A stretch of 64,000 bases of DNA from Streptosporangium sp. NBC_01755 (GTDB lineage: Bacteria > Actinomycetota > Actinomycetes > Streptosporangiales > Streptosporangiaceae), in the NCBI RefSeq assembly GCF_035917995.1, contig NZ_CP109131.1:4650001-4714000 (forward strand), given 5' to 3'. Position 1 is the stretch's first letter, and each line of letters begins with the position of its first letter. The position numbers and the translations under genes were made by a program. The notes below the pieces were generated by a model, which was not told the DNA's origin, did not search any database, and was given only the letters and a program-made list of their open reading frames with translations. This document shows positions 29,310-47,237 of the stretch, one piece after another.

Positions 29310-29324
29310 TCCCGCTGAGCGGAA
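29310..29324 (-). promoter_or_regulatory. TCCC box A (hsaB promoter)
   Basis: TCCCGCTGAGCGGAA matches the palindrome TCCCGCTnAGCGGGA at 14 of 15. In the hsaB direction TAACTT begins 46 nt from the first base of the box (29278), giving a leader of about 50 nt. Confidence 0.68.
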
Positions 29325-29379
29325 GGGGCTCGGGGCGCGACCCGGTGTCCCGGCCGATCCCGGGCGGAGGTGGGCCGGG

Positions 29380-29394
29380 TCTCACTCATCGGGA
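29380..29394 (+). promoter_or_regulatory. TCCC box B (hsaD operon promoter)
   Basis: TCTCACTCATCGGGA matches the palindrome at 12 of 15. TACCTT begins 45 nt from its first base (29425), and the hsaD ATG follows about 32 nt after the expected start point. Confidence 0.6.
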
Positions 29395-29468
29395 GAGGCG
29401 ACCCGCTCGCCGGCCCTCGCGGGCTACCTTCCCCGAAGCCGATACTCCGCGATGAACAGGACGGATGA

Positions 29469-30338
29469 ATGCTTACCGAGCTGACCTATGAGTCGACGGC
29501 GCGGGAACTTGCGACCGACCAGGGTGTACTGCGCTACCACGAAGCCGGCGAGGGCCCGCCGCTGCTGCTCCTGCACGGCTCGGGGCCCGGAGTCACCGGC
29601 TGGCGGAACTTCCGAGGCAACCTCGCGGTCCTGGCGGAGCACTTCCGCTGCCTGATCCTGGAGTTCCCCGGTTTCGGGGTGAGCGATTCCACCGGCGAGC
29701 ATCCCATGGTGGGGGCGCAGACCGCGGTGATCCGCTTCCTTGACGGGCTCGGGCTCCATCAGGCCGACGTGATCGGCAACTCCATGGGCGGAGCCATCGG
29801 TGCCCAGGTGGCGATGGCCCATCCCGACCGGGTGCGCCGGTTGGTCACCATCGGCGGCATCGGCAGGAACCTGTTCAGCCCGGGCCCCGGTGAGGGCATC
29901 AAGCTGCTCATGGATTTCACCGAGGAGCCCACCCGGGAGCGGCTCGTTCAGTGGCTGGACTCCATGGTCTACGACCGGTCCCTGGTCACCGAGGAACTGA
30001 TCGAGGAGCGCTGGGCGCTGGCCACCGAACCGGCCACCCTGGCCGGCGCCCGCCAGATGTACGGCAAGGCGGCGTTCGCCGCCCGTGCCGCGGCCGCGGC
30101 GGCCTCGGACGCCCCGCCGTACTGGGCGATGCTGCACAAGGTCAAGGCCAAGACACTGATCACCTGGGGCCGCGACGACCGGGTCAGCCCGCTTGACATG
30201 GCGATCCTGCCGATGCGGTCCATCCCCGACGTCGAGGTGCACATCTTCCCCGACTGCGGTCACTGGGTGATGATCGAGCAGAAAGCCGCCTGGGAGAGCG
30301 CCGTGCTGGCCTTCCTGACCAGGAAGGACGAGCGGTGA
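29469..30338 (+). CDS. hsaD: C-C bond hydrolase of the meta-cleavage pathway, HsaD-like
   Basis: This 289-residue alpha/beta hydrolase is of the meta-cleavage-product class. LLLHGSGPGVTGWRNFRGN holds the oxyanion hole, GNSMGG the nucleophile Ser105, GRDDRVSP the Asp and CGHWVMIE the His (about 265). HsaD cleaves the ring-opened 4,9-DSHA to HHD and DOHNAA in steroid catabolism; here the assignment rests on fold plus neighbours. It is the first gene of hsaD-kstD-kshB-hsaA and its stop overlaps the kstD start (GTGA). Confidence 0.82.
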   Translation: MLTELTYESTARELATDQGVLRYHEAGEGPPLLLLHGSGPGVTGWRNFRGNLAVLAEHFRCLILEFPGFGVSDSTGEHPMVGAQTAVIRFLDGLGLHQADVIGNSMGGAIGAQVAMAHPDRVRRLVTIGGIGRNLFSPGPGEGIKLLMDFTEEPTRERLVQWLDSMVYDRSLVTEELIEERWALATEPATLAGARQMYGKAAFAARAAAAAASDAPPYWAMLHKVKAKTLITWGRDDRVSPLDMAILPMRSIPDVEVHIFPDCGHWVMIEQKAAWESAVLAFLTRKDER

Positions 30339-32023
30339 GTGGGTGGGACCACGAGTTCGACCTGGTCATCGTGGGCAGCGGCGGCGGCGGCATGACGGCG
30401 GCGCTGACCGCGCACGACAGCGGCCTGTCCGCGGTGGTGGTCGAGAAGGGTGCGGCGTTCGGCGGCAGCACCGGGATTTCCGGTGGCGGCATCTGGATCC
30501 CCAACAATCCCACCCTGCGGGCCGAGGGGCACGACGACAGCCGCGAGTCCATCCGCCGCTACCTCGATCTGCTGACCGAGCGCCGGGTCCCCGCGGCCAG
30601 GCTCGACGCGTTCGTGGACAACGGTCCGGCCGCGATGGAACTGCTCGGCAGGAGCAAGTGGATCCGGTTCTTCTGGACCAGGGGTTACGCCGACTACCAC
30701 CCCGAGTTCGAAGGCGGCAGGCCGCTGGGCCGGTCGATCGAGCCGATCCCGTTCGACACCCGCGCGCTCGGCGAGGACGAGAAGTACCAGCGTCCCAACG
30801 GCATGAAGGGCCCGCTGGGGCTCTGGGTCACCAGCAAGGACTACCACGACCTGGCCATGGTCAAGCGCACCTGGAGCGGCCGCCGGGCGTCGATCGTCGC
30901 CGCCTGGCGGGTCTGGTCGAACCTGTTCCGCCGCCGCCACATGTCCACCGGCGGGCGCGCGCTCGTCGCCCGGCTGCGGATGGCGCTGAAGGACGCGCGG
31001 ATCCCGCTGTGGCTGCGGACGCCGATGACCGAACTCGTCACCGACGAAAGCGGCGCCGTCACCGGCGTCGTCGTTCGGCGCGACGGGAAGACCGTCCGGA
31101 TCCGCGGCAGGCGCGGGGTGCTGCTGGCGACCGGTGGTTTCGACCACAACCAGGAAATGCGCGACAAGTACCTGCCCGCCGGCGGCCGAACCGACTTCGG
31201 CATGGGGGCCACGGAGAACACCGGCGACGGCATCCTGGCGGGCGAGCGGCTCGGCGCGGCCCTCGACCTGATGGACGACGCCTGGTGGATGCCGGCCGTA
31301 CGGCACCCGGCGGGGGCGACCATCCCGCTGGTGTCCGAGCGGTGCATCCCGCCGTCGGTCATCGTGTCGCAGCAGGGGCGGCGGTTCACCAACGAGTCCG
31401 CCCCATACGTCAACTTCGTGCACGACCAGTTGGCCGGCGGGCACGTGCCCGTGTGGTTCGTGATGGACGCCAAGGCCCGGACGCGGTACCCGTTCGCGCA
31501 GATCCTTCCCGGGATGCCGATACCGGAGGCGTTCTACGAGCGGGGTGTGGCGTTCCGCGCCGACACGCTCGCCGAGCTGGCGGTAAAGGTCGGCATGCCC
31601 GCCGGCGCGCTGGCCGAGACCGTCGAGCGTTTCAACCGGTTCGCCAGGGCCGGCAAGGACGAGGACTTCGGCCGGGGCGACAGCGCCTACGACCGCTACT
31701 ACGGCGATCCCACGCTGAGGAATCCGAACCTCGACGTGATCGACAAGGCGCCGTACTATGCCTTTCGTGTCGAGGCCGGCGACCTCGGCACCAAGGGCGG
31801 GCTGGTCTGCGACGAGCACAGCCGGGTGCTGCGATCCGACGGCTCGGTGATCGAAGGGCTGTACGCCACCGGGAACACCTCCGCATCGGTCATGGGCAAC
31901 GAGTACGCGGGTCCCGGCGCTACGATCGGCCCCTCGATCGTCTTCGGGTACATCGCCGCCCGGCACGCGGCGGGTCGATCCCACCAGACCGTTTCCGCGA
32001 TCAGGGAGGAGTGGGGAGCATGA
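30335..32023 (+). CDS. kstD: KstD-like 3-ketosteroid delta-1-dehydrogenase
   Basis: This 562-residue FAD protein of the fumarate reductase/KstD family starts at GTG 30335. The N-terminal FAD motif is DLVIVGSGGGGMTAALTA, with GGSTGISGGGIWIPNN after it. The C-terminal GNEYAGPGATIGPSIVFGY contains the Tyr-x-Gly-Pro-Gly motif that holds the catalytic Tyr and Gly in known KstDs. The enzyme would introduce the 1,2 double bond into a 3-ketosteroid A ring. It is flanked by coupled hsaD and kshB genes. A second KstD-like gene lies at 35009-36553. Confidence 0.86.
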   Translation: MSGWDHEFDLVIVGSGGGGMTAALTAHDSGLSAVVVEKGAAFGGSTGISGGGIWIPNNPTLRAEGHDDSRESIRRYLDLLTERRVPAARLDAFVDNGPAAMELLGRSKWIRFFWTRGYADYHPEFEGGRPLGRSIEPIPFDTRALGEDEKYQRPNGMKGPLGLWVTSKDYHDLAMVKRTWSGRRASIVAAWRVWSNLFRRRHMSTGGRALVARLRMALKDARIPLWLRTPMTELVTDESGAVTGVVVRRDGKTVRIRGRRGVLLATGGFDHNQEMRDKYLPAGGRTDFGMGATENTGDGILAGERLGAALDLMDDAWWMPAVRHPAGATIPLVSERCIPPSVIVSQQGRRFTNESAPYVNFVHDQLAGGHVPVWFVMDAKARTRYPFAQILPGMPIPEAFYERGVAFRADTLAELAVKVGMPAGALAETVERFNRFARAGKDEDFGRGDSAYDRYYGDPTLRNPNLDVIDKAPYYAFRVEAGDLGTKGGLVCDEHSRVLRSDGSVIEGLYATGNTSASVMGNEYAGPGATIGPSIVFGYIAARHAAGRSHQTVSAIREEWGA

Positions 32024-33054
32024 CCCAGCCGGGACCACTGAAGGCGCGGGTCGTCGAGGTCATCCGGGAGACCTCCGACGCGCACTCGCTGGTGCTGGAG
32101 CCCGCCGACGGAGACCACACCCGGTTCGGCTACCGGCCAGGCCAGTTCCTCACCATCCGGGTGCCCACCACCCGCCCCGAGGGTGCGGCGCGCTGCTACT
32201 CCCTGAGCAGCTCACCGGTGTGCGACGAGAAGCTCAAGGTGACGGTGAAGCGCACCCGGGGCGGCTACGGGTCGAACTGGATCTGCGATGACGTCATCGA
32301 GGGGGACGTGCTGGAGGTGCTGCGGCCGGCGGGCACGTTCGTCCCCGTCTCGCTCGACGAGGACCTGCTGCTGCTCGCCGGCGGCAGCGGCATCACACCG
32401 GTCATGTCGATCCTCAAATCGTGCCTGCGCGGGGGCACCGGCGCCGTCTCCCTCCTGTACGCCAACCGCGACGAGAACTCGGTGATCTTCCGTGACGAAC
32501 TGGTGGCGCTGACCGCCGAGTACGGCGAGAGGCTGACCGTCGTCCACTGGCTGGAGTCGGTGCAGGGCCTGCCCAGCGCGAGCAGCCTGGCCGCGCTGAC
32601 CCGGCCGTACACCGACCGGGAGGCGTTCATCTGCGGCCCGGGCCCGTTCATGGACCTCGCCGTGAAGGTCCTCGCCGACCTGGGTGTCCCGAGGCGGCGG
32701 GTCAACGTCGAACGTTTCGAGTCGCTGGCCACCGACCCCTTCGCCGGGCCCGGTGTCGCGGTCGACTCCTCGGGCCCCGGCAGCACGCTCGAGATCGAGC
32801 TGGACGGTGAGAAGAGGACGTTGACCTGGCCGAAGGGCAACAAGCTCCTCGACGTGCTACTGGCGGCCGGCATGGAGGCGCCGTACTCGTGCCGTGAGGG
32901 GTCCTGCAGCGCCTGCGCCTGCGTGCTGCTGGAGGGCGAGGTCGCGCTGGAGCGCAACACGGTCCTCGACGCGCAGGACCTCGCCGACGGGCTGATCCTT
33001 TCCTGCCAGGCGACCCCGCTCAGCGAGCACCTCAGGATCACCTACGACGAGTGA
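32020..33054 (+). CDS. kshB: KshB-like ferredoxin-NADH reductase
   Basis: This 344-residue protein has three modules: an FAD domain (RCYSLSSSP), an NAD domain (GGSGITPVMS, FICGPGPFMD) and a C-terminal plant-type [2Fe-2S] domain (Cys291, Cys296, Cys299 in SCREGSCSACAC, last Cys in LSCQA near 329). This order is that of KshB, the reductase of 3-ketosteroid 9-alpha-hydroxylase; the oxygenase KshA lies at 40766. Phenylacetate-oxygenase reductases share the layout. ATG 32020 overlaps the kstD stop as ATGA. Confidence 0.87.
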   Translation: MTQPGPLKARVVEVIRETSDAHSLVLEPADGDHTRFGYRPGQFLTIRVPTTRPEGAARCYSLSSSPVCDEKLKVTVKRTRGGYGSNWICDDVIEGDVLEVLRPAGTFVPVSLDEDLLLLAGGSGITPVMSILKSCLRGGTGAVSLLYANRDENSVIFRDELVALTAEYGERLTVVHWLESVQGLPSASSLAALTRPYTDREAFICGPGPFMDLAVKVLADLGVPRRRVNVERFESLATDPFAGPGVAVDSSGPGSTLEIELDGEKRTLTWPKGNKLLDVLLAAGMEAPYSCREGSCSACACVLLEGEVALERNTVLDAQDLADGLILSCQATPLSEHLRITYDE

Positions 33055-33221
33055 ACCTCGTCCGGGCCCGGAACCCTTTCGCCGAGGGGGAGACGGGCAC
33101 CGCTGGGAGAGCCGTCACGGAAACCCCGCAGCACCGTTGACCATCCCCATCTCTCAACCGCCCGCACTGCCCGAGCACGATGCGGGACACGAACTCGGGA
33201 GGACCGAATGCTGGAGGTAAG

Positions 33222-34457
33222 GTGAAAATCGGTACGGCGCACCGGCGTGAACGGCACGGGCCGGGCGAACGCGACTCTCCTATGTCTCCCCCGGGCGACG
33301 AGGTCCTGGACGCGGTCCGCGCACTGCTGCCGACGATCGGGGAGCGGGCAGGCGCAGCCGACGTGAATCGGCGGGTGCCCGAGGAGACGATACGGGAGCT
33401 CATCCGGACGGGGGTCTTCCGGATGCTGCAGCCCAGGAGGTACGGCGGCGCCGAGAGCGACCCCGTGAAGTTCTTCGAGGTCGTCCGGGAGATCTCCGCG
33501 GTCTGCGGATCCACAGGCTGGCTGGTTTCCGTGCTCGGCGTCCACCCGTGGCAGCTCGCCCTGTTCGACGAGGCAGCGCAGGACGAGGTCTGGGGGGAGG
33601 ACCCGGACGCGCTCGTGTCCTCGTCGTACGCTCCCGTGGGGCGGCTCACTCCGGTCGAGGGCGGATACGAGCTCTCCGGTCGGTGGCGCTTCTCCTCCGG
33701 TTGCGACCACGCGTCGTGGGCACTGGTCGGGGGCCTGGTGGTGGGGAAGCAGGGCAGGCCGGTGGACTTCATGACCCTCCTCGTCCCCCGTACCGACTAC
33801 GTGACCGAGGATGTCTGGGACGTCATCGGACTGCGCGGCACGGCCAGCAACGACATCATCGTGAAGCGGGTGTTCGTGCCCGAGCACCGCGCCATGCGCA
33901 ACTACGAGCAGGCACAACTGCGCGGTCCCGGCCAGAAGGTGAATACCGGCCCGCTCTACCGGATGCCGTTCGCGACCGTCTTCACCAACGCGATCACCGC
34001 TCCCGTCGTCGGCATGGCGGCCGGTTGCTACCGGGCCTACGTCACCGCGATGCGCGACCGGGTACGGCTGAGCCTGGGCGGCGGCCGGTTCGCCGAGGAC
34101 CAGTTCGCCCAGGTCGCGGTGGCCCGGGCCGCTTCGGAGATCGACGCGGCGGTGCTGCAGACGGACCACAACGTGCGCCGGGTGTACGAGTACGCCGTCC
34201 GGGGCGAACGAATTCCGATGGAGTTGCGGCTGCGCGTCCGCAGGGACCAGGTCCGTGCCACCGAGCGGGCGGTGGAGGCGATCGACAGTCTCTTCAAGAC
34301 CGCCGGAGGGAACTCGCTCGGCCGAGGCAACCCCATCGAGCGGGCCTGGCGGGACGCGCACGCGGGCAGCGTGCACGTCGCCAACGACGCCGAGCGCGCC
34401 CTGGGGATGTACGGCAAGGGCGAGTTCGGCCTGACCGTCGAGGACAACCTGGTCTGA
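33222..34457 (+). CDS. hsaA: HsaA-like flavin-dependent monooxygenase, copy 1
   Basis: This 411-residue protein of the acyl-CoA dehydrogenase fold belongs to the group of two-component hydroxylases (HsaA: 3-HSA to 3,4-DHSA). Features: EETIRELIRTGVFRMLQPRR, VCGSTGWLVSVLGVHPWQLA, GRWRFSSGCDHASW and WDVIGLRGTASNDI. GTG 33222 has GGAGG just upstream; ATG 33282 would match the shorter N-terminus of relatives. It follows kshB by 167 bases with no obvious promoter, so it is probably read from the hsaD promoter. It is about half identical by eye to the copy at 43539. Confidence 0.82.
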   Translation: MKIGTAHRRERHGPGERDSPMSPPGDEVLDAVRALLPTIGERAGAADVNRRVPEETIRELIRTGVFRMLQPRRYGGAESDPVKFFEVVREISAVCGSTGWLVSVLGVHPWQLALFDEAAQDEVWGEDPDALVSSSYAPVGRLTPVEGGYELSGRWRFSSGCDHASWALVGGLVVGKQGRPVDFMTLLVPRTDYVTEDVWDVIGLRGTASNDIIVKRVFVPEHRAMRNYEQAQLRGPGQKVNTGPLYRMPFATVFTNAITAPVVGMAAGCYRAYVTAMRDRVRLSLGGGRFAEDQFAQVAVARAASEIDAAVLQTDHNVRRVYEYAVRGERIPMELRLRVRRDQVRATERAVEAIDSLFKTAGGNSLGRGNPIERAWRDAHAGSVHVANDAERALGMYGKGEFGLTVEDNLV

Positions 34458-34640: not shown

Positions 34641-35012
34641 TCACTGTGCCTCCCGCATGTCGTCGCCGCTCCAGAACGCCCGCATGCTGGTGATCCGCTG
34701 CTCTTCGTCGAAGGTCATCACGTCGATCGGCTCGATCTCGAACGCCCGGTCACCCCGCTCGCTCCGTACCCGGAAGTGGAAGGCGGCGCTGTCGCCGGCG
34801 ACGCGGACGGTCAGCAACTCCGTGCTCCGGCGCGCGCCTTCGAGCGCCGAGTAGAACTCGCGGATCGCGGCGCGGCCCCGGCGCGGCTCGCTGCCCACCG
34901 GGTCCTCCAGCGTCCCGTCCTCCGCGTAGCAGGCCGCCAAGTCGTCCGCGGTCCCGTTCGCCACCGCGTCCAGGTAACGGACGACGGCATCGTTGATCTT
35001 CTCGGCGCTCAT
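34641..35012 (-). CDS. SnoaL/ketosteroid-isomerase-like protein
   Basis: This 123-residue protein has the NTF2-like cone fold: INDAVVRYLDAVANGTADDLAACYAEDGTLEDPVG, then FYSALEG, FHFRVRSERGDRAFEIEPIDVMTFDEEQRI and MRAFWS. The pattern matches steroid delta-5-isomerase-like proteins, with Tyr/Asp-type positions kept. It would move the double bond of a 3-keto-5-ene steroid before KstD acts. Its ATG overlaps the stop of the kstD-like gene by 4 nt, so the two are coupled. Confidence 0.8.
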   Translation of the reverse strand: MSAEKINDAVVRYLDAVANGTADDLAACYAEDGTLEDPVGSEPRRGRAAIREFYSALEGARRSTELLTVRVAGDSAAFHFRVRSERGDRAFEIEPIDVMTFDEEQRITSMRAFWSGDDMREAQ

Positions 35013-36553
35013 CGGTCCGCCGTCCGGATTCGGGTGGCGGCGCGGTAGCCGAAGACCATGCCGGAGCCGAGCGGGACCCCGGGGCCCGGGTAGACATGCC
35101 CGGCCACCGAGGCGGCCGAGTTGCCGATGGCGTACAGGCCGGGGATCGCGTTTCCGTCCTCGCCGAGCACCTGCCCGTCCTCCCCGACCCGCGCGCCGCC
35201 CTTGGTGCCGAGGTCGCCGAGCACGACCTGCACCGCGTGGAACGGGGCCCGCTCGATCGGGACGAGGGCGGGGTTCGGGCCGTCACCGGTCGCGAAGAAC
35301 CGGTCGTAGGGGTCCTCGCCCCGGTGGAAGTCGCTGTCCACGCCGGAGGCGGCGAACCCGTTGAACCGGGTGACGGTCTTGCCCAGCACGTCGGCGGGCA
35401 CGCCGATCCGCTCGGCGAGAGCGGTGAGTGTGTCGGCGGTGCGCCACAGGCCGGCAGCCTGGAACGCCTCGGGATCGGGCGCGGGCTGGGACATCCCCGG
35501 CACGTTGGCGAAGCGCCCGTCGAAGATCCACCACACCGGCAGGTGCGACACACCGGTGGCGTGCCCCGCGCGGATCTCGTGGCCCATCCGGTCGTACGGC
35601 AGCGACTCGTTGGCGAACCGCTCGCCCGCGGCGTTCACGAAGACGCCTCCGCGCAGGCCGAGGGTGAAGGCGGCGTGGCCGTTGGGGAACAGCACGGCCG
35701 GGCACCACCACGCCTCGTCGGTCAGGTCCGTCGCGGCGCCCACCGCCTGGAGCGCGGCGAGCGCGTCCCCGGTGTTCGACCCGGGCGCCGCCGACGACCA
35801 GTCCGCGCCGGGCAGGTCCTGTAGCTCGCGCCGCAACTCCGCGTTGCGCTCGAACCCGCCGGCGGCCACGATCACGCCGAGCTCGGCGCGGATCATCAGT
35901 GTGCGGCCCTCATGCTCGGCCTCAAGGCCGACGACCCGGCCGTCCTCAACCACCAGCGAGCGCATCCGCGTTCCGGTCCGCGACGTGGCGTTCCCGGTGC
36001 CGTCCAGGGCGAGCAGCAGCCTGCCGATGAGGGCCTGACCGCCGGTCAGCGTCTCCCGGTCGTATGGCACGCCGAACTGGTCGATCGAGATCGGCGGGCG
36101 CACCTGACCGAGCCGGGCGCCCAGCAGGTGCGCCGGCAGCGGCTTGGGGCGGATTCCCCGGCCGCCGGGGGCGCGTCCCGGAGCCGCGAAGTAGTCCGGG
36201 AACGGCAGGTACTCGAACTCCAGCACCGGGTCACGGTCCAGGAACTCCACCAGCTCGGGCGCCGTCGAGACGTAGGCCTTCTGCAGTGCGGCCGGTGTGC
36301 GGTCGCCGACGACGGCCCGGAAGTACTCCAGCCCCCGCTCCACGCTGTCCTCGACGCCCGCCTGGCGCAGGATGTGGTTGCCGGGCAGCCACAGGCCCGA
36401 CCCGGAGTAGGCGCTGGTGCCGCCGAAGTACTCGGTCTTCTCCAGCACCAGGGTGCGCAATCCGCCCGCCGCCGCTGTGTAGGCCGCCGTCAGCGCGGCG
36501 CCTCCGGATCCCACGACGACGACGTCGGCCGTCTCATCCCACTGAACTGGCAC
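35009..36553 (-). CDS. KstD-like dehydrogenase, copy 2
   Basis: This 514-residue FAD protein starts at GTG 36553 behind GGAGGAG. The FAD motif is DVVVVGSGGAALTAAYTAAA, then FGGTSAYSGSGLWLPGN. The C-terminal GHVYPGPGVPLGSGMVFGY keeps Tyr-x-Gly-Pro-Gly. It is clearly divergent from copy 1, so it may act on a different ring substitution pattern (for example a 4-ene versus a 5-alpha substrate). It is coupled to the isomerase-like gene. Confidence 0.84.
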   Translation of the reverse strand: MPVQWDETADVVVVGSGGAALTAAYTAAAGGLRTLVLEKTEYFGGTSAYSGSGLWLPGNHILRQAGVEDSVERGLEYFRAVVGDRTPAALQKAYVSTAPELVEFLDRDPVLEFEYLPFPDYFAAPGRAPGGRGIRPKPLPAHLLGARLGQVRPPISIDQFGVPYDRETLTGGQALIGRLLLALDGTGNATSRTGTRMRSLVVEDGRVVGLEAEHEGRTLMIRAELGVIVAAGGFERNAELRRELQDLPGADWSSAAPGSNTGDALAALQAVGAATDLTDEAWWCPAVLFPNGHAAFTLGLRGGVFVNAAGERFANESLPYDRMGHEIRAGHATGVSHLPVWWIFDGRFANVPGMSQPAPDPEAFQAAGLWRTADTLTALAERIGVPADVLGKTVTRFNGFAASGVDSDFHRGEDPYDRFFATGDGPNPALVPIERAPFHAVQVVLGDLGTKGGARVGEDGQVLGEDGNAIPGLYAIGNSAASVAGHVYPGPGVPLGSGMVFGYRAATRIRTADR

Positions 36554-36728
36554 TGATCTCCTCCAGATCGCTCGTGTTGGCGGGCGGTGCGGCGGCCGTG
36601 CGGCCGGCGACCTGTCCGAAGGCGAGGGTGTCGGCGATGTGGAACCCGCCGTCCTTGACCTGTCCGAAGGCGAGGGTGTCGGCGATGTGGAACCCACCGT
36701 CCTTCGCCCGGCTACAGGTGGAGCTCAC
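36534..36728 (-). pseudogene. Flavoprotein C-terminal remnant with 48-bp duplication
   Basis: A 64-codon frame holds two tandem copies of KDGGFHIADTLAFGQV (DNA repeat 36610-36657 and 36658-36705, one or two mismatches), then AGRTAAA. The motif resembles the last residues of fumarate reductase/KstD-type flavoproteins. It ends inside the start of kstD copy 2 and has no larger domain, so it is read as the end of a lost flavoprotein gene. It lies about 60 nt after the promoter predicted from box C. Confidence 0.5.
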
Positions 36729-36829: not shown

Positions 36830-36844
36830 TCCCGCTCAGCAGGA
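36830..36844 (-). promoter_or_regulatory. TCCC box C (kstD copy-2 direction)
   Basis: TCCCGCTCAGCAGGA matches the palindrome at 14 of 15. Read leftward, TACGGT begins 45 nt from the first base of the box (36799). Confidence 0.65.
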
Positions 36845-36977: not shown

Positions 36978-36992
36978 TCCCGCTCATTGGGA
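36978..36992 (+). promoter_or_regulatory. TCCC box D (MFS gene direction)
   Basis: TCCCGCTCATTGGGA matches at 13 of 15. TAGCGT begins 45 nt from its first base (37023), within ACTTAGCGTCTGCG, which nearly repeats ACTTAGCGTCAGCG downstream of box F. The leader to the MFS ATG would be about 280 nt. Confidence 0.62.
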
Positions 36993-37311
36993 TGCCCGAC
37001 GTGATCTACGTCACCGGGCACTTAGCGTCTGCGCCAGTGCACGACCTGAAGCCAGGCGGGCCGGTCGTGCTCCGCGCCGCCCCTGATCTCCCCGAGCCCC
37101 GGCGGTTCCCCGCCGGGCCGGGATGACCGCACCCCCGTCGTGGGGGAACCTGCGGTCCGTTATCGACCGGAAAACGTGCGTGACACCGTGGTGTCCGCGT
37201 GGTGCCAAGGAGGAACAGCATCCCCCCGCCGGGACCTGCGCCACGAAGACGCCGGGGTCCGCGGCCACGCCGAGATTCATTGAAATATCACGTTTTTCTG
37301 GAGGCCTGACG

Positions 37312-38994: not shown

Positions 38995-40449
38995 TCACCG
39001 GGCCGTGGCGCTGCGGCGGGGGCGCTGCAGGAGGAACAGGACGAGGGCGACCAGCGCCGCGGCAGCGCCGGCGGCGGTGAACGCGTCGTAGGAGCCGCGC
39101 GGTACGAACGCGACGCCGACGGGAATCGTCGTGACGATGCCGAACACCGCGCTGCTCACCGACATGCCGACGGCGCGGGCCAGCGAGTTGAGTCCGTTCG
39201 CGACACCGATGTTCTCCTCCGGCGTGACCTGAAGGATCAGTGCGGGCAGGTTCGCCAGGACCATGGAGTTGCCGACCGAGACGACGGCGATCACGCAGAC
39301 GAGCACCCACAGCGATCCGTGTCCCAGTGGGATCTGGGCCGCGAACCCGGCGGTGGAGATCGCGCAGCCCAGCGCGATCGTCACCCGTGGGGTGACGATC
39401 GCGCTCAGCCTGGCCGACAGCGGCGCCACCACCGCCGACAGCAGCCCTCCGGGCAGCAGGCACAGACCGGTCATCAGCACCGACAGCCCGTGCCCGTAAC
39501 CGGTCGACACCGGCGCCTGGAGGCGTCCGACGATCCCGAGGAAGTTCGTGAACAGCGCGAAACCAATCAGGATCGACCCTCCGTTGATCGTGGCGGAGGA
39601 GCGGCTCACCGCCACCCTGAGGTCGATGAGCGGAGCATGGCGGCGAAGCTCCACCAGGGTCAGCAGGCACCCGGACACCAGCGCCGCGAGGAAGGACGCG
39701 ATGGTCAGCGCGTTCGTCCACCCCCACTCGCCGCCGCGGTCGAGCCCGACCAGCAGGGTGACGATGAAGCAGGTGAGCAGTACCGCGCCGAAGAGGTCGA
39801 CCCGCTGCGTGTGCTCGCGCCGGGGCGGCGCCGGGACCGCCAGCAGCAGGGCGGCCACCGCGATCGCACCCGCGACCGCCGAGACGGCGAACAGCCCGTG
39901 GAAGCCCCACAGCCGGGAGACCAGCCCGGCGGTCGGCAGCCCGAGCGCGCCGCCGGCCCCCATCATCGCGCTGACGGAGGCGATGGCGGAGGCGCGGCGC
40001 TTTGGCTCCAGGACCACCCCCACCAGGCTCATCCCGAGCGGGATCGTCGCACTGGAGATCCCCTGGAGCGCCCGCCCGGCGATGAGGACGCCGATGTTGT
40101 CGCTCATCACGCACATCAGGGACCCGAGGATCATGGCGCCGAGCGCCACGATCATCATCCTGCGCATCCCGAACTGGTCGCCCAGCCTGCCCAGCACCGG
40201 GTGCGACACCGCGCCGGCGATGACCGTCGCGGTGACCAGCCAGGTGGCGATGGAGGGCGTCACCCCCAGGCGGCCGGGCAGTTCGGGCAGCACCGGGACG
40301 ACCAGCGTCTGGTTGAGCGTGGTCACCAGGGTCGCGAAGGCGACGACGAGGACCACCCGCAACGGGTGCTTCACCACGGTGGGGGCCGGATCCGGAGCGC
40401 GTGTCGAATCCCCGCTTCCGGGTCCGGACAAGATCTGGTGAGTGGTCAT
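38995..40449 (-). CDS. MFS transporter, drug:H+ antiporter type, copy 2
   Basis: This 484-residue protein of the same MFS class has about 14 hydrophobic helices. GRLGDQFGMRRMMIVALG is the loop 2-3 motif and IAGRALQGISSATIPLGMS the helix-5 antiporter region. ATG 40449 was chosen; the longer frame to 40542 is Arg/Pro-rich leader. TCCC box E lies about 100 nt upstream. It is divergent from kshA. Confidence 0.88.
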   Translation of the reverse strand: MTTHQILSGPGSGDSTRAPDPAPTVVKHPLRVVLVVAFATLVTTLNQTLVVPVLPELPGRLGVTPSIATWLVTATVIAGAVSHPVLGRLGDQFGMRRMMIVALGAMILGSLMCVMSDNIGVLIAGRALQGISSATIPLGMSLVGVVLEPKRRASAIASVSAMMGAGGALGLPTAGLVSRLWGFHGLFAVSAVAGAIAVAALLLAVPAPPRREHTQRVDLFGAVLLTCFIVTLLVGLDRGGEWGWTNALTIASFLAALVSGCLLTLVELRRHAPLIDLRVAVSRSSATINGGSILIGFALFTNFLGIVGRLQAPVSTGYGHGLSVLMTGLCLLPGGLLSAVVAPLSARLSAIVTPRVTIALGCAISTAGFAAQIPLGHGSLWVLVCVIAVVSVGNSMVLANLPALILQVTPEENIGVANGLNSLARAVGMSVSSAVFGIVTTIPVGVAFVPRGSYDAFTAAGAAAALVALVLFLLQRPRRSATAR

Positions 40450-40551: not shown

Positions 40552-40566
40552 TCCCGGCGAGCGGGA
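40552..40566 (-). promoter_or_regulatory. TCCC box E (MFS copy 2 / kshA region)
   Basis: TCCCGGCGAGCGGGA matches the palindrome at 13 of 15 and is itself near-perfectly symmetric. It lies 103 nt upstream of MFS copy 2. This is the one box without a TAnnnT hexamer at the usual 45-46 nt in either direction. Confidence 0.55.
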
Positions 40567-40656: not shown

Positions 40657-40671
40657 TCCCGGTCAGTGGGA
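40657..40671 (+). promoter_or_regulatory. TCCC box I (kshA promoter)
   Basis: TCCCGGTCAGTGGGA matches at 13 of 15. CATGAT begins 45 nt from its first base (40702), giving a kshA leader of about 50 nt. Confidence 0.6.
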
Positions 40672-40765: not shown

Positions 40766-41932
40766 ATGACGTCGATACAGACCGCCGGTGATGACGAGAT
40801 TCGAGTGATCGAGGCGGCCCCACCTCCGGCGCGTTATGCCCGGGGCTGGCACTGCCTGGGCCTGGCGAACGAGTTCAGGGACGGCAAACCGCACAAGATC
40901 GAGGCATTCGGCACCAAGCTGGTGGTGTTCGCCGACAGCACCGGCACGCTGAACGTCCTCAACGCCTACTGCCCGCACATGGGCGGCGACCTCAGCCAGG
41001 GGGAGGTCAAGGGCGACTCGCTCGCCTGTCCCTTCCACGACTGGCGCTGGGCGGGCAACGGCCGGTGCACCAGCATTCCGTACGCCCGCCGGGTGCCGCC
41101 GAGGGCACGCACCAGGACATGGCTGGCCCTGGAGCGCAACGCGCAGCTGTACGTCTGGCACGACCCGCAGGGCAACCCGCCCCCGCCGGAGGTGACGATC
41201 CCGGAGATCGCCGGTGTGAACACATCGGAGTGGACCTCCTGGACGTGGAACCGGATCAAGATCGAGGGCTCCAACTGCCGTGAGATCGTCGACAACGTGG
41301 TCGACATGGCCCACTTCTTCTACATCCACTTTGCCTTCCCGACGTACTTCAAGAACGTCTTCGAAGGGCACGTCGCCGCGCAGTACATGAACAGCCGGCC
41401 CCGTCCGGATATCCAGATCGGTACGAACTACTCCGGTGACAGGACCGACGGGCGTTCGGAGGCGGCGTACTACGGCCCGTCGTACATGATCGACTACCTG
41501 TGGCACACCGTGGCGGGGCAGACGATCGAGTCCGTCCTGATCAACTGCCACTACCCGGTGTCGCCGACCAGCTTCGTGCTCCAGTGGGGCGCGATGGTCA
41601 AGAAGCCCCAGGGCGTCTCCGACGACGCGGCGCAGGCGATGGCGGCGGGCTTCGCGGCGGGCGTGGAGACGGGCTTCATGCAGGACGTGGAGATCTGGAG
41701 GAACAAGGCCAAGATCGACAATCCGCTGCTGTGTGAGGAGGACGGCCCGGTCTACCAGCTGCGCCGCTGGTACGACCAGTTCTACGTCGACGTCGATGAC
41801 GTCGCCCCGGAGATGACCCAGCGGTTCGAGTTCGAGATCGACACCGAGCGGGCCAACCAGTTCTGGCAGAAAGAGGTCGACGACAACATCGCCAACGGTC
41901 GGATCGTCACCTCGGCCCCGGCCCCGGCTTAG
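40766..41932 (+). CDS. kshA: KshA-like Rieske oxygenase (3-ketosteroid 9-alpha-hydroxylase)
   Basis: This 388-residue oxygenase has a Rieske centre with Cys69-x-His71 (CPHMGG) and Cys88-x2-His91 (CPFH). The mononuclear iron site is within DNVVDMAHFFYIH (Asp180 region, His183, His188). The sequence around FAFPTYFKNVFEGH and LWHTVAGQTIESVLINCHYPV matches KshA. Together with KshB it would hydroxylate C9 so that ring B opens. ATG 40766 follows AAGGGAGA. Its TAG stop lies inside a 14-bp repeat array. Confidence 0.9.
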   Translation: MTSIQTAGDDEIRVIEAAPPPARYARGWHCLGLANEFRDGKPHKIEAFGTKLVVFADSTGTLNVLNAYCPHMGGDLSQGEVKGDSLACPFHDWRWAGNGRCTSIPYARRVPPRARTRTWLALERNAQLYVWHDPQGNPPPPEVTIPEIAGVNTSEWTSWTWNRIKIEGSNCREIVDNVVDMAHFFYIHFAFPTYFKNVFEGHVAAQYMNSRPRPDIQIGTNYSGDRTDGRSEAAYYGPSYMIDYLWHTVAGQTIESVLINCHYPVSPTSFVLQWGAMVKKPQGVSDDAAQAMAAGFAAGVETGFMQDVEIWRNKAKIDNPLLCEEDGPVYQLRRWYDQFYVDVDDVAPEMTQRFEFEIDTERANQFWQKEVDDNIANGRIVTSAPAPA

Positions 41933-42478: not shown

Positions 42479-42528
42479 TACTCACACACGGTTCGCTCGG
42501 GAGTAGACAGGCAAGACAAGGGGAATTC

Positions 42529-43140
42529 GTGGCGAGAATCGCCGAAGCGCGGGCTCCGGCGTCGCCGACCTCGGAGAGCCAGATCGCCCGGTACAAGCGC
42601 ATTCTGGACGCCGCGGCCGAGCTCGGCGCCCGCAAGAGAGTCGACGTGGTGCAGATGCACGAGGTCGCCAAGGACGCCGGCGTGGCGATCGCGACCCTGT
42701 ACCGCTACTTCCCTTCCAAGAACGCGCTGTTCGCCGCGGTCTTCTGGGCGGAGATCAAAGCCTTCGGCGAAAGCAGGCGGCCCGGCGAGGGCGAGGACCT
42801 CGTCGACCAGGTCACCGACTTCCTGGTGGGGCTGAGCCGCCATCTGCTGGTGCGGCCGATGCTGGCCGCCGCGATGTTCCAGGGCACCAGCGCCGTATAT
42901 GTAACGGCAACGATGGACGAGGTCGAACCGACGAAGTCCGAGCTCGGCCGCATTCTGCTGCGCATCATCGGGGCAGAGGAGCCGAACAGGCAGGATCTGA
43001 GCGTGGTGCGGCTGCTCACGCACTGCTGGTGGGGTGCGCTGATCTCGACCCTCGGGGGCCAGACGACCCTGCCGAGGGCGGATGCCGACATCCGGCTGGC
43101 CGCGCGGCTGCTCCTCGCGCCGTACTCCGACGATCGGTGA
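42529..43140 (+). CDS. TetR-family regulator 1 (catabolic island)
   Basis: This 203-residue repressor-type protein starts at GTG 42529 behind AAGGGGA. The HTH lies at residues about 22-66 (VQMHEVAKDAGVAIATLYRYFPSKNALF), which resembles KstR-type steroid regulators. The C-terminal helical domain probably binds a pathway intermediate. It stands between kshA and the hsaA-hsaC operon. None of the nine TCCC boxes lies directly before it. Confidence 0.9.
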   Translation: MARIAEARAPASPTSESQIARYKRILDAAAELGARKRVDVVQMHEVAKDAGVAIATLYRYFPSKNALFAAVFWAEIKAFGESRRPGEGEDLVDQVTDFLVGLSRHLLVRPMLAAAMFQGTSAVYVTATMDEVEPTKSELGRILLRIIGAEEPNRQDLSVVRLLTHCWWGALISTLGGQTTLPRADADIRLAARLLLAPYSDDR

Positions 43141-43283
43141 CCGGGCCGGTTCCCTTCGCCTGTCATCGCGTTGGGAACCCGCCTTCCGTCACCCCCGCGA
43201 GTCCCGGTGACCGGGCCGGTTCCCGCCGTCTGTCACCGCGTTGGGAACCCGCCCCAGGTCACCCCGCGAGTCCCGGTGACCGG
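43136..43283 (+). repeat. 70-bp tandem duplication over the TetR stop
   Basis: GGTGACCGGGCCGGTTCCC begins at 43136 and again at 43206, and GGTGACCGG begins at 43275. The first copy contains the TGA stop of TetR gene 1. Each unit has GGTTCCC and GGGAACC arms able to form a hairpin. The rest of the gap to 43538 holds only box F and its promoter. Confidence 0.9.
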
Positions 43284-43424
43284 AACCTCGCGACCGTTGC
43301 CGTCGCCCCCATGCCACCGCCGGTCCCCGGTCGTCGGCCGCGTCTTTTCCCGACGCGGCGCGGTGCCCGCCGGAGTCTCCCCCGAAGAGGATGACGGACC
43401 TGCCCGCCGTACCCCGTTGTCCAG

Positions 43425-43439
43425 TCCCGGCCAGCGGGA
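43425..43439 (+). promoter_or_regulatory. TCCC box F (hsaA copy-2 / hsaC promoter)
   Basis: TCCCGGCCAGCGGGA matches at 13 of 15. TAGCGT begins 46 nt from its first base (43471), giving a leader of about 56 nt to the hsaA copy-2 ATG. Confidence 0.65.
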
Positions 43440-43538
43440 TGTGCCGTGGACTCGGTGGTCGAGGGCGACTTAGCGTCAGCGAGCCGCCGCAGAAACGGCG
43501 GATTGCGACTCTCTCAGATTCAGTCCGGAGGTGCCTTG

Positions 43539-44723
43539 ATGGCGCATGAAGTTGTTTCCCGAGTAGAGGAGATCGCCGGTCAGCTGGCCGCGGCCGCGGA
43601 CGAGACCGAGCGCCTGGGCAAGCTGTCCGATGAGAGTGTGAAGCTGATCCGCGAGACCGGAGTGATGCGGCTGCTGCAGCCGACCGACTTCGGGGGATAC
43701 GCGGCGCACCCCCGGGACTTCGCCGAGGCGGTGATGGCGGTGGCGAAGGCGTGCGGCTCAACGGGCTGGGTGTGCGGGGTCGGTGGAGTGCACCCGTGGG
43801 AGATGGCGTTGTGCGACCGCCGGCTGCAGGAGGAGGTGTGGGGCTCCGATCCGAACACGTGGATCGCTTCGCCGTACATGCCCAGCGGGGTGGCGACGCC
43901 GACCGACGGCGGGTACATCCTCAAGGGCCACTGGCAGTTCTCCTCGGGCACCGACCACTGCGACTGGATCTTCCTCGGCGCGCTGCTCGGAGACGCCGAG
44001 GGCAAGCCGGCGCAGCCGATGAAGGGAATGCACGTGGTGCTGCCCCGCTCCGACTACACGATCGTCGAGGACTCCTGGGACGTCATCGGACTGCGCGGGA
44101 CCGGCAGCAAGGACATCATCGTCGACGGCGCGTTCATCCCCGCCTACCGGACGATCGACGCCGCGGAGGTCGCCGAGGGCGAGGTCGCGGCCGAGCGGGC
44201 CGGCCGGACCGAGACGGTGTACAGGCTGCCGTTCTGGTCGATGTTCCCCCTGGGCATCACCGCCGCGGTGATCGGCATCTGCGAGGGCGTGCTCGCCACG
44301 CACCTGGACTACCAGCGGGACCGGGTGACGGCCTCCGGCGCAAAGGTGAAGGAAGACCCGCACACGCTGTACGCGATCTCCGAGGCCGCGTCCGACATCC
44401 AGTCCTCGCGGCTGCAACTGCTCGACGGCATCAGCCGGCTCTACGACCTCGCCGACTCCGGAAAGCCGATCACTTTCGCGGATCGGGCCGTGGTCCGGCG
44501 CAACCAGGTTCGCTGCGCGTGGCGGGCGGTGTCGGCGGTCGATGAGATCTTCGCGCGGTCCGGCGGCAACGCGGTGCGCCGCAACAACCCGATGCAGCGG
44601 TTCTGGCGCGACGCGCACGTCGGGTTGCAGCACGCCATCCACATTCCCGGCAACGCCTACCAGGCGACGGCACTGACCCAGATGGGTGTCGAGCCGCAGG
44701 GCGCGCTGCGCGCGCTGATCTGA
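43539..44723 (+). CDS. hsaA: HsaA-like flavin-dependent monooxygenase, copy 2
   Basis: This 394-residue protein starts at ATG 43539 behind GGAGG. It shares with copy 1 GSTGWVCGVGGVHPWEMA, GHWQFSSGTDHCDW, WDVIGLRGTGSKDIIVDG and the RNNPMQRFWRDAHVG end. HsaA hydroxylates the phenolic A ring (3-HSA) using FMNH2 or FADH2 from HsaB. Because it is in one operon with hsaC, this copy is the better candidate for the true HsaA; copy 1 may serve a modified substrate. Confidence 0.86.
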   Translation: MAHEVVSRVEEIAGQLAAAADETERLGKLSDESVKLIRETGVMRLLQPTDFGGYAAHPRDFAEAVMAVAKACGSTGWVCGVGGVHPWEMALCDRRLQEEVWGSDPNTWIASPYMPSGVATPTDGGYILKGHWQFSSGTDHCDWIFLGALLGDAEGKPAQPMKGMHVVLPRSDYTIVEDSWDVIGLRGTGSKDIIVDGAFIPAYRTIDAAEVAEGEVAAERAGRTETVYRLPFWSMFPLGITAAVIGICEGVLATHLDYQRDRVTASGAKVKEDPHTLYAISEAASDIQSSRLQLLDGISRLYDLADSGKPITFADRAVVRRNQVRCAWRAVSAVDEIFARSGGNAVRRNNPMQRFWRDAHVGLQHAIHIPGNAYQATALTQMGVEPQGALRALI

Positions 44724-44777
44724 TCCCCGCTCCGGACGATCTCGACCAACACCTCAATCGATTCAGGAGAGATGGGC

Positions 44778-45665
44778 ATGACCGACATCAGCTCGCTGGG
44801 TTACGTGCGCGTCCGAGCCACGGACCTGGACGCATGGCGCACGTTCGCCCTCGACACGATCGGATTCGCCGAAGGTACCGGGCCGGAATCCGACGCGCTG
44901 TACCTGCGCATGGACGAGCGGCACGCCCGCATCGTGCTGCTGCCCGGCGAGGAGGACCGGGTGGAGGCCGTCGGGTGGGAGGTCCGCGACCACCTGGCGC
45001 TGCGGCGCGTGCAGTCGGCCGTCGAGGCTGCCGGCATCGCGACGAAGCCGCTGTCGCTGGAGGACGCCGAGGCCCGCCGGATCGAGGCGGGGATCGCCTT
45101 CCAGAGCCCGGGTGGGACTCCACTGGAGGTCTTCCACGGTCCCGCACTGGACCACAGCCCGATCGCGACGAAGTTCGGCAACCGCTTCGTCGCCGGGCGG
45201 CTCGGCATGGGCCACGTGGTGGTGCCGGTGAGCGATCTGGAGGGCGACCACCGGTTCTACGCCGAAACCCTCGGTTTCCTGCCCCGCGGGGCGTACCGCC
45301 TTCCGGTGCCGCCCGAGTACGGCCCGATCCGGCTGCGGTTCATGGGCGTCAACGCCCGGCACCACAGCCTGGCGATCCTGCCGACCCCGGACCTCAAGGC
45401 GCCGGCGCTGGTGCACATCATGGTCGAGTGTGAAACCCTCGATGAGGTCGGCCGGGCACTCGACCGCGTCACGGCGGGCGGCTACCACCTCTCCTCGACG
45501 CTGGGCCGGCACACCAACGACAAGATGGTCTCCTTCTACGTGCGCACCCCCGGCCGTTGGGACCTTGAGGTCGGCTGCGAGGGCATGCTCGTCGACGAGA
45601 CCTCCTACACCGCCGAGGAGATCACCGCCGACAGCTACTGGGGTCACAAGTGGGACCGGACCTGA
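44778..45665 (+). CDS. hsaC: Extradiol ring-cleavage dioxygenase, HsaC type
   Basis: This 295-residue type I extradiol dioxygenase is built of two glyoxalase-like modules. The Fe(II) ligands are visible in the second: His in LGMGHVVVPV, His in ARHHSLAIL and Glu in WDLEVG. HsaC cleaves the catechol 3,4-DHSA next to the hydroxyls; biphenyl-diol dioxygenases (BphC) share the fold. ATG 44778 has AGGAG at 8 nt; ATG 44772 is too close to it. The gene follows hsaA copy 2 by 54 bases, in one operon. Confidence 0.9.
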   Translation: MTDISSLGYVRVRATDLDAWRTFALDTIGFAEGTGPESDALYLRMDERHARIVLLPGEEDRVEAVGWEVRDHLALRRVQSAVEAAGIATKPLSLEDAEARRIEAGIAFQSPGGTPLEVFHGPALDHSPIATKFGNRFVAGRLGMGHVVVPVSDLEGDHRFYAETLGFLPRGAYRLPVPPEYGPIRLRFMGVNARHHSLAILPTPDLKAPALVHIMVECETLDEVGRALDRVTAGGYHLSSTLGRHTNDKMVSFYVRTPGRWDLEVGCEGMLVDETSYTAEEITADSYWGHKWDRT

Positions 45666-46163
45666 CCACTCGTCCGCCCGGCGGGCGCGCCCCGGACAGG
45701 GATCCGAACCGCCTCGGGAGAGTCTGATGGATCCGGACAGTCGGCTGACGCTGCGGCGTTGAAGACACAGTCGGTGAGAGAAGGCCCGCTGACGTAGGAG
45801 AGCGAGCGGATTCCGACGGCATCGCGGTCCGCGGACTGTGGTGCCGTTCTCGCGGTCCGCGGGTTGTGGTGCCGTTCTCGCGGTCCGCGGACTGCGGTGC
45901 CGTTCTTGCGGCGCACCTCGCCGTACTCCTCGTCCACGATCAGCCCACCGACCGAAGACGTCGCCGAGGGCGGACTTACGGCGTACCTCGACGAGCGGGT
46001 GTGTGCTCGACACGCCCGCGCCCGGTAGCGCGAGGTACGTGCGCCGGGGGAGCGGGAAACAGGCGCCGGCGGCGGCCGGGGGTTCGGCCGCCGCCGGTCG
46101 ACCCGATCAGGCCGAAGGCGCGGGCGGTGAAGTGAAGCGGTGCCCCCAGAACGCGCCTTCTGT
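45666..46163. other. Convergent gap with 28-bp repeats
   Basis: There are 498 bases between hsaC and the convergent hydrolase gene. Three 28-bp units at 45824, 45852 and 45880 (GCGGTCCGCGGACTGTGGTG core) are clear. On the minus strand 45905-46030 there are protein-like fragments in shifted frames (THPLVEVRRKSALGDVF; SVGGLIVDEEYGEVRRK), possibly a decayed gene end. No intact gene was seen. Confidence 0.55.
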
Positions 46164-47000
46164 TCAGGCTGCGGTGAAGAAGTCGCGGACCAGCGCCTCG
46201 AACGCCGCCTTGCGCTCCACCTGGGCCCAGTGGCCACAGTTGGAGAAGACGTACAGGTCGGCGTTGGGCATGCGCCGGGTGGCGAAGAAGGCGCCCTCCA
46301 GCGGCAGCATCCGATCGTCACGGCCCCAGGTGACAAGCGTGCGGTGGTGGATCTGCCCGGTTCGCGTCCACATCGGACCGTGGACGGACGGGATGGCGAG
46401 GCTGCCGAAGATGTTGCGCATCCGGTCGATCGCGCCGGGCGCGAGTGCGCGGTCGGTGCGTTCCTGGATCAACTCGTCGGACACGCCGGCCGGATCGGAG
46501 ACCATGGTGTCCACCCACGCCCGCATGGCGGCCGGGGAGGGAGAGGCGACGAAATCGAACAGCCGTCGAGCCCCTTCCGACCTCGGCGGGGCGAAGATCT
46601 CGGCCGCGATCCCGCCGGGGCCCATCATGAGCATCCGATCGACCCGGTCGGGGTAGGCGAACGCGGTCTCCAGCGCGACGAAGCCTCCCATCGAGTTGCC
46701 GACCAGATGGGCCTTGGCGATGCCCAGGTCGTCGAGCAGGGAGATGACGGCGTCGGCCGCGTGCTCCGGATACGGGCGGGTATAGGGCACTTCGGGACTG
46801 TCACCGAAACCGGGCATGTCAATGACGATCGTCCGAAACGTCTCAGCGAGAGGTGCCAGATTGGCGGCGAAGTTCGACATGCCGGAGACGCCGGGGCCCG
46901 AACCGTGCAGCATGACCACCACGGGTCCGGTGCCGGCCTCGCGGTAGGTCAGTTCGTAGGTGCCACGGCTCACCTTTGGTGCGATCTCGACTGTCGTCAT
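46164..47000 (-). CDS. C-C bond hydrolase of the meta-cleavage class, copy 2
   Basis: This 278-residue alpha/beta hydrolase is closely similar in layout to the HsaD-like protein at 29469. It has VVMLHGSGPGVSGMSNFAAN, nucleophile GNSMGG, WGRDDRMLP and CGHWAQVE. ATG 47000 was chosen; the in-frame extension to 47123 is basic and unlike relatives. Being next to hsaC, it may be the true HsaD for the ring-cleavage product. Two TCCC boxes lie upstream. Confidence 0.82.
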   Translation of the reverse strand: MTTVEIAPKVSRGTYELTYREAGTGPVVVMLHGSGPGVSGMSNFAANLAPLAETFRTIVIDMPGFGDSPEVPYTRPYPEHAADAVISLLDDLGIAKAHLVGNSMGGFVALETAFAYPDRVDRMLMMGPGGIAAEIFAPPRSEGARRLFDFVASPSPAAMRAWVDTMVSDPAGVSDELIQERTDRALAPGAIDRMRNIFGSLAIPSVHGPMWTRTGQIHHRTLVTWGRDDRMLPLEGAFFATRRMPNADLYVFSNCGHWAQVERKAAFEALVRDFFTAA

Positions 47001-47117
47001 CGGTGGTTTCCACCTTCTCTTCGATGAGGAACCCCGCAGGGACACCCGCGGATGCGACGCTCGGTCGCCGCTGGGTCGTGATGCTAGGTATTTCGCTGAG
47101 AAGGCGGCCATTACTCC

Positions 47118-47132
47118 TCCCACTCACCGGGA
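47118..47132 (-). promoter_or_regulatory. TCCC box G (hydrolase copy-2 promoter)
   Basis: TCCCACTCACCGGGA matches the palindrome at 13 of 15. Read leftward, TAGCAT begins 46 nt from its first base (47086); the leader to ATG 47000 would be about 74 nt. Confidence 0.63.
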
Positions 47133-47222
47133 GATCTCGCGAGGAGCTCGACGACCGGCTCATCGGGGTTCCAAAGCCAATCCGTTCACCAGGAGCACGA
47201 ATGGGAGGTCTCGATTTCCGCC

Positions 47223-47237
47223 TCCCACTCACCGGAA
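47223..47237 (+). promoter_or_regulatory. TCCC box H
   Basis: TCCCACTCACCGGAA matches at 12 of 15 and nearly repeats box G. TAGTGT begins 45 nt from its first base on the + strand (47268), pointing toward TetR gene 2, about 190 nt ahead. Confidence 0.5.

Follow-up and report, generated by a model that had tools for sequence, protein, structure and literature searches.

The 64,000-nucleotide stretch of Streptosporangium sp. NBC_01755 analysed here (the window) contains, at 27.7-47.3 kb, an IclR-family regulator gene and a set of genes for 9,10-seco steroid ring degradation. A 15-bp palindromic box, TCCCGCTNAGCGGGA, recurs at the promoters of this island, and it marks a real, conserved regulon. 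The motif itself had been predicted before, as Lcin1; it is now tied to a subfamily of IclR proteins and to the promoter geometry of an activator. We predict that the box is the operator of the IclR protein encoded at 27703-28596, which would bind near -50 and activate transcription, and we give this reading a probability of roughly 0.8. The proposal of a preliminary description of the window, that the box unites the steroid-type island under one regulator, is supported.

Nine sites in the window differ from the palindrome by one to three mismatches each (Table 1), at the coordinates and with the 12-14 matching positions of 15 first described. Eight have evident targets, namely the divergent pairs hsaB/hsaD, kstD copy 2/MFS gene 1 and MFS gene 2/kshA, together with hsaA copy 2-hsaC and hydrolase copy 2. 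The longest open reading frames (ORFs) of kshA, MFS gene 2, hsaA copy 2 and hydrolase copy 2 start in or near these promoters. Because we place the true starts, by eye, at about 40766, 40449, 43539 and 47000, respectively, all nine boxes lie in non-coding DNA, as had been claimed. Overall, the window holds 19 sites with at most three mismatches against an expected 8.70 (standard deviation 2.87), and none of 100 dinucleotide shuffles reached 19. The genome (8,149,094 bases in one contig, C1, with the window at C1:4650001-4714000) has 110 sites with at most two mismatches, compared to 65 for a reversed-pattern control, so most genome-wide matches are due to chance. Nevertheless, seven of the 110 fall within 29310-47132 (about 18 kb), where 0.24 would be expected (Poisson P 7.5e-9), and outside the island the density of boxes in this genome is close to background. 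The narrower pattern TCCCRNTSANYGGGA, which includes Lcin1, has four sites in the genome: three in the island and one before a distant hsaE gene. Six of the nine window boxes do not match it exactly. Two further box-like sites, at 43202 and 43271, lie inside a 70-bp tandem repeat (2.1 copies, 43135-43283) between the genes for TetR 1 and HsaA copy 2, and no TANNNT hexamer was found 44-47 nt from either. Among 30 genome sites listed, six of them in the island, TANNNT occurs at 44-46 nt at five, all in the island.

At all nine window sites, a hexamer of the form xAnnnT begins on the gene side of the box, 45-46 nt from the box start (background 0.037 per oriented position, P 1.4e-13), and at seven the stricter TANNNT does so (background 0.011, P 7e-13); both P values are post hoc, the offset having been noticed in the same sites, and the independent test comes from the promoters of relatives. 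The phasing reported earlier for eight sites thus stands, and the ninth, thought to lack a hexamer, has CACCGT at 40516-40521 on the minus strand. In the relatives, 641 distinct oriented sequences lie beside boxes scoring at least 14. TANNNT is present at offsets 44, 45 and 46 in 36, 54 and 35 of them, respectively, and in 0-7 at every other offset from 15 to 83. Alignment of 125 of the relatives' promoters gives TASSKTC at -10 (the TA and the final T are set by selection), and no -35 consensus was seen in them. Taking the hexamer as the -10 element puts the box centre near -50, the activator-like position suggested at the outset. A fixed operator position upstream of a -10 without a -35 element, as for IclR-type activators, is therefore what these promoters have. 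This spacing suits an activator-dependent promoter, while a repressor would not need it, and for this reason we propose activation.

The boxes recur at loci with orthologs of the IclR gene. Scanning named genomes with the IclR protein gave 183 places encoding a relative, and we compared the best 80, from genera that include Streptosporangium, Microbispora, Planotetraspora, Actinomadura, Geodermatophilus, Saccharopolyspora, Streptomyces, Nocardioides, Rhodococcus and Prescottella. Among the named genomes, the best match to the protein, at 98% identity, is in Streptosporangium amethystogenes. A matrix built from the nine window sites finds 416 matches at a score of at least 12 in these 80 loci (1.57 Mb), compared to 35 with the reversed matrix. 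The order IclR, HsaB (on the opposite strand), boxes, HsaD, KstD, HsaA, HsaC is widely kept (40 of the 80 loci compared); HsaD is present in 70 of the 80, an HsaA copy 2-like protein in 67, HsaB in 64, KstD in 63 and HsaC in 49, many loci stopping before the end of the cluster. Box and -10 are retained while their flanks differ between relatives. At 78 loci the upstream DNA is long enough for comparison, and in 52 of these a gene for a luciferase-like oxidoreductase points away from iclR; the space between the two genes often contains a box. On the reverse side of this box, TAGAAA or TAGCAA is found near offset 44 (by eye); the iclR promoter of the relatives is without such phasing and has a TACATT-like hexamer about 76-80 nt from the box.

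A strong box outside the island also supports the proposed regulon. This tenth site, TCCCACTGAGCGGGA, with one mismatch, lies 1.77 Mb away from the island, at C1:6462195, where it precedes the hsaE gene of an hsaE-G-F operon (C1:6462195-6465069, gene identities by Pfam), with AATCTT at offset 45 (by eye). The genome's best HsaG is encoded there, at 6463100, and is 82% identical to that of Rhodococcus jostii NBRC 16295 (L136). In the island, the interval between the KshB-like gene and HsaA copy 1 (33060-33215) contains a decayed box and a relic of an hsaE start, ATGCTGGA. S. amethystogenes (L086) keeps hsaEGF at this place, behind a decayed box of its own (TTTCGCTGAGGGGAA, score 11.6). Because that species retains the operon and the window has the decayed box and the relic start, we conclude that the island hsaEGF was deleted in this genome. 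Identity between the S. amethystogenes hsaEGF products and the distant ones is 79%, 86% and 92%, whereas the other island proteins of that species that were compared are 92-98% identical to those of the window. In each of the four closest relatives searched, the island holds the best HsaG match, and the second is remote (59-67%). Both observations indicate that the distant, box-bearing hsaEGF is probably of another ancestry and not the old operon moved. We had considered that hsaEGF left the island together with its box, an idea dropped after these comparisons. A further HsaG-like gene (57%) and an IclR paralog stand close together (C1:3218356 and C1:3221592); the recognition helix of this paralog is a different one, LPKTTAFRLL, and the box nearby is weak (score 15.1).

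Box counts vary with the IclR ortholog among genomes. Of 297 genomes of the family, 56 have an IclR ortholog (at least 68% identity) and 236 do not; five with intermediate homologs only (3, 3, 5, 9 and 7 boxes) were left out. Strict boxes average 7.54 per genome with the ortholog and 2.52 without it (P 2.8e-25, kinship ignored), compared to 0.57 and 0.49 for a control pattern. The mean is higher with the ortholog in all ten genera holding both kinds of genome; in one genus (g37), 19 genomes with the ortholog have 7-12 boxes and 19 without it have 0-5.

Co-occurrence fails to separate the IclR protein from TetR 1, a KstR-like regulator encoded in the island, because the two genes travel together. 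We therefore turned to the recognition helix. We took 21 IclR homologs in 20 stretches, picked regardless of boxes, and counted boxes within 1.6 kb. A box scoring at least 16 accompanies five of seven homologs with the helix PRS[TS]xHR and none of 14 with other helices (Fisher P 0.001), a cut-off set after the scores were seen; at 14, the counts are five of seven and five of 14, and some of the genomes are close relatives. Three remote paralogs (L204, L205 and L206; 36-39% identity), chosen for an adjacent box, have boxes at both gene ends with scores of 16.7-21.9. The box also resembles, in part, published operators of IclR group 1, for which the motif GKTYCRYW3-4RYGRAMC has been given (Suvorova and Gelfand 2021, PMC8222616). 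In the parts of that study that concern group 1, the operators share with the box the core YCRY..RYGR and an odd-length palindrome, and the helix residues P27, R28, S29, T30, H32 and R33 are shared as well (alignment by eye, mapped on TtgV). The passage on helix position 32 reports that His there weakly prefers C at motif position 10 (PMC8222616). The window protein has His at helix position 32 (by eye) and its box has C at position 10.

Besides the late cut-off and the kinship in the helix test, several observations weigh against the IclR protein as activator through this box. A consensus -10 is missing at some boxed sites (those of hsaE, kshA, MFS gene 2 and the luciferase-like gene), and the window has no box directly before iclR. 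The island hsaE box, strong in L048 and others, is lost or weak in this clade, which argues against a constant role there. In the group 1 motif as published in the passages cited above, a central W3 and T at -6 are expected; the box has S at its centre and C at -6. Genomes without the ortholog still exceed the control pattern (2.52 versus 0.49), so other proteins use a similar site. IclR and TetR 1 orthologs co-occur almost perfectly (55 genomes with both, one with IclR only, three with TetR 1 only), and the single IclR-only genome, G101, has one strict box. Finally, inspection by eye shows a box variant in front of 16 of 20 TetR 1 orthologs, as autoregulation by TetR 1 would give; 15 of these variants end in GGTA.

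The last two points would favour binding of the box by TetR 1, which would then repress as KstR does at cholesterol genes, and a KstR homolog is mentioned for the cholate cluster of R. jostii RHA1 in the relevant section of a review (PMC8399759). We consider this unlikely. The fixed phasing to a -10 without a -35 suits an activator instead, and the three genomes with TetR 1 only have 3, 3 and 0 boxes, which is the background level. The helix-turn-helix of TetR 1 shares the stretch TLYRYFPSK with KstR, whose operators are of the AAC..GTT type. In addition, tetR1 is not preceded by a box in the window genome or in three near relatives. Boxes are also found beside IclR paralogs where the stretch examined lacks a TetR 1 homolog: no such homolog was found in the 2.5-2.8 kb around L204, L205 and L206, nor in eight of nine stretches with IclR paralogs of 46-58% identity. 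An early argument, that TetR 1 is rare beside IclR (4 of 80 loci), is misleading, as the genomes carry it elsewhere; a TetR 1 homolog (E 1e-12 or better) is present in all 35 genomes searched, which cover 35 of the 80 loci. The TetR 1-only genomes, the recognition helix and the fit to the core of the group 1 motif favour IclR, and the original ranking of IclR first and TetR 1 second is supported.

IclR proteins can act as repressors or as activators, and the protein might bind the box yet repress until an inducer releases it. We think this less probable still, since a repressor would require neither a constant -10 spacing over many promoters nor the absence of a -35 element. The boxes might instead be GC-rich palindromes that recur by chance, as most genome-wide matches do according to the reversed-pattern count, or through copying of promoter DNA. 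This is hardly credible given the island enrichment, the phasing, the conservation at 80 loci with box and -10 kept amid differing flanks, and the box counts of genomes with and without the IclR ortholog.

We return to the IclR protein as activator. The computed features (sites, phasing, absent -35 element, conservation, and covariation with IclR ortholog and helix) would be joined by a scheme in which binding, activation, operon extents and inducer are predicted. One or more IclR dimers would bind the palindrome, whose centre would lie about 50 bp before the transcription start. With 45-46 nt to the -10 and no -35 element, the bound protein would recruit RNA polymerase. A steroid-derived inducer, acting with IclR, may thereby switch on the ring A/B genes jointly; the set would include hsaB, hsaD-kstD, kstD copy 2, kshA, hsaA copy 2-hsaC, hydrolase copy 2, the two MFS transporters and the distant hsaEGF.

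Table 1. Genes and box sites of the steroid island (window coordinates; scores against cut-offs of the models named)
Feature	Coordinates	Strand	Remarks
IclR-family regulator, proposed box-binding activator	27703..28596	+	HTH_IclR 4.2e-10, IclR_C 3.3e-34 (Pfam, both above cut-offs); helix LPRSTAHRIL
HsaB-like flavin reductase	28613..29227	-	NF045630, 186 bits, below cut-off 230
Box TCCCGCTGAGCGGAA	29310..29324	-	before hsaB; TAACTT at 29273-29278
Box TCTCACTCATCGGGA	29380..29394	+	before hsaD-kstD; TACCTT at 29425-29430
HsaD-like hydrolase	29469..30338	+	NF045632, 273 bits, below cut-off 400
KstD-like FAD dehydrogenase copy 1	30335..32023	+	FAD_binding_2 1.3e-76
Ferredoxin reductase, KshB-like by context	32020..33054	+	TIGR02160, 221 bits, below cut-off
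Decayed box TTTCGCCGAGGGGGA	33077..33091	+	score 9.5; Sphaerisporangium (L096) has a strong pre-hsaE box here
HsaA copy 1	33180..34457	+	NF045629, 661 bits, above cut-off 450
SnoaL/NTF2-like protein, possibly steroid isomerase	34641..35012	-	SnoaL_2 1.5e-18
KstD-like dehydrogenase copy 2	35009..36697	-	
Box TCCCGCTCAGCAGGA	36830..36844	-	before kstD copy 2; TACGGT at 36794-36799
Box TCCCGCTCATTGGGA	36978..36992	+	before MFS gene 1; TAGCGT at 37023-37028
MFS transporter 1	37123..38811	+	MFS_1 1.9e-31
MFS transporter 2	38995..40449	-	MFS_1 3e-47; start estimated by eye
Box TCCCGGCGAGCGGGA	40552..40566	-	before MFS gene 2; CACCGT at 40516-40521
Box TCCCGGTCAGTGGGA	40657..40671	+	before kshA; CATGAT at 40702-40707
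KshA	40766..41932	+	KshA_C 1.4e-92; sole KshA_C match in genome; start by eye
TetR 1, KstR-like, rival regulator	42529..43140	+	TetR_C_20 3.8e-15; PDB 3bjb E 5.7e-43; KstR 1e-16
Box TCCCGGCCAGCGGGA	43425..43439	+	before hsaA copy 2 and hsaC; TAGCGT at 43471-43476
HsaA copy 2	43539..44723	+	NF045629, 401 bits, below cut-off 450; start by eye
HsaC-like extradiol dioxygenase	44772..45665	+	TIGR03213 338 bits, NF045631 333 bits, both below cut-off
HsaD-like hydrolase copy 2	46164..47000	-	NF045632, 288.5 bits, below cut-off 400; start by eye
Box TCCCACTCACCGGGA	47118..47132	-	before HsaD-like hydrolase copy 2; TAGCAT at 47081-47086
Box TCCCACTCACCGGAA	47223..47237	+	TAGTGT at 47268-47273; next same-strand gene is TetR 2 at 47461

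HsaA copy 1 belongs with the canonical HsaA equivalogs, and copy 2 scores like the HsaA of R. jostii L136 (383 bits). Many relatives keep TTGCTACATTCCAAAACAAGAATTTATTTCAGTTTTGGGG upstream of iclR (27660-27705), after a likely -10 and ahead of the start codon, and some have the palindrome GGAATTCATTCC; TTGCTACATTCCAAAACAAGAATTTATTTCAGTTTTGGGG is perhaps an autoregulation operator. Before TetR 2, a perfect palindrome, TTCAGATGTT-TCT-AACATCTGAA (47393-47415), is likely that regulator's own operator. A perfect 14-bp tandem repeat, CCGGCTTAGCCCGT (9.1 copies, 41924-42051), covers the end of kshA and the DNA just beyond. For the side-chain (cas) genes, one probe, the acyl-CoA ligase of L138, gave no hit in the genome at 1e-60, a result that means little by itself.

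The preliminary description held that no regulon with this box had been described, and we too had treated the motif as new. Both views had to be given up. Lcin1, TCCCGGT[C/G]ACCGGGA, was predicted by footprinting in Nocardioides simplex VKM Ac-2033D in 2020, in the passages on that motif around the lithocholate-induced cluster E and before hsaEGF (Shtratnikova et al., PMC7593942). It is the same 15-bp palindrome as the window box (TCCCGGTSACCGGGA), agreeing in length, arms and centre, and as the box does here it precedes cholate-type genes and hsaEGF. The same passages suggest KR76_18060, called a KstR3 ortholog, as its factor and describe KR76_18065 as the ortholog of ro05794, a flavin-dependent oxidoreductase (PMC7593942). 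Because the oxidoreductase is next in number and a luciferase-like gene adjoins iclR in relatives, KR76_18060 is probably this IclR protein. As far as those passages go, the earlier work concerns one species, gives no promoter geometry and names no family for KR76_18060 beyond "KstR3 ortholog", while the window has a rearranged version of the island in another family. New here are the assignment to an IclR protein, the geometry of an activator and the regulon's breadth; the box itself had already been predicted.

The likely function of the regulon follows from gene order. R. jostii NBRC 16295 has genes for an MFS transporter, luciferase-like protein, IclR, HsaB, HsaD, KstD, FAA-hydrolase (HsaE), acetaldehyde dehydrogenase (HsaG), HsaA and HsaC. 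In strain RHA1, the cholate genes listed by locus tag in Table 1 of a 2021 review are HsaB3, HsaD3, KstD3, HsaE3, HsaG3, HsaF3, HsaA3 and HsaC3; according to its section on this cluster, they rise with cholic acid and not with cholesterol (PMC8399759). Since the relatives' loci with IclR and box share the gene order of this cluster, the regulon most likely serves the cholate-type branch, judging by sequence. The window conforms only in part: hsaEGF is out of the island, and kstD, hsaA and the hydrolase are doubled. We had also considered R. jostii gene cluster 2, given as of unknown function in the passage concerned (PMC4810484), as the counterpart; it was set aside, since the genes follow the order of the cholate cluster. 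Induction of such clusters by bile acids has been reported, in the sections concerned, for N. simplex and R. jostii (PMC7593942, PMC8399759). This likeness suggests that the same IclR-type protein may also serve clusters for bile-acid breakdown in other actinobacteria.

In Actinobacteria, 9,10-seco steroid genes of the same type are controlled by KstR and KstR2. These are TetR-type repressors, whereas the island has an IclR-type protein and activator-like geometry. A literature search, mostly at title level, found no publication assigning an IclR regulator to this cluster. From the portions seen of two further papers, SRTF1 is a TetR regulator of kstD2 in N. simplex (PMC7807495), and the legend of a steroid-cluster figure for Rhodococcus ruber Chol-4 names an IclR gene without a motif (PMC6498646). 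The 2021 review describes knowledge of the regulation of bile-acid degradation, in its passage on the subject, as limited (PMC8399759).

We lean slightly toward a broader view, in which the IclR subfamily with the helix PRS[TS]xHR and the operator TCCCRNTSANYGGGA would be a dedicated activator of the branch for bile-acid-type steroid ring degradation across Actinobacteria, with a logic that is the reverse of that of the KstR repressors. At other gene sets, paralogs sharing this helix would use the same operator, and box-bearing genes outside the island, such as hsaEGF, would belong to the regulon. If so, cross-talk between same-helix IclR paralogs is to be expected. With a candidate protein, an exact operator and a promoter geometry in hand, control of this branch can be tested directly, and the box provides a signature for finding its scattered genes, as with hsaEGF here. 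The assignment suggests the gene family to which the orphan motif Lcin1 belongs, and it would bring an activator into a field known chiefly from TetR repressors.

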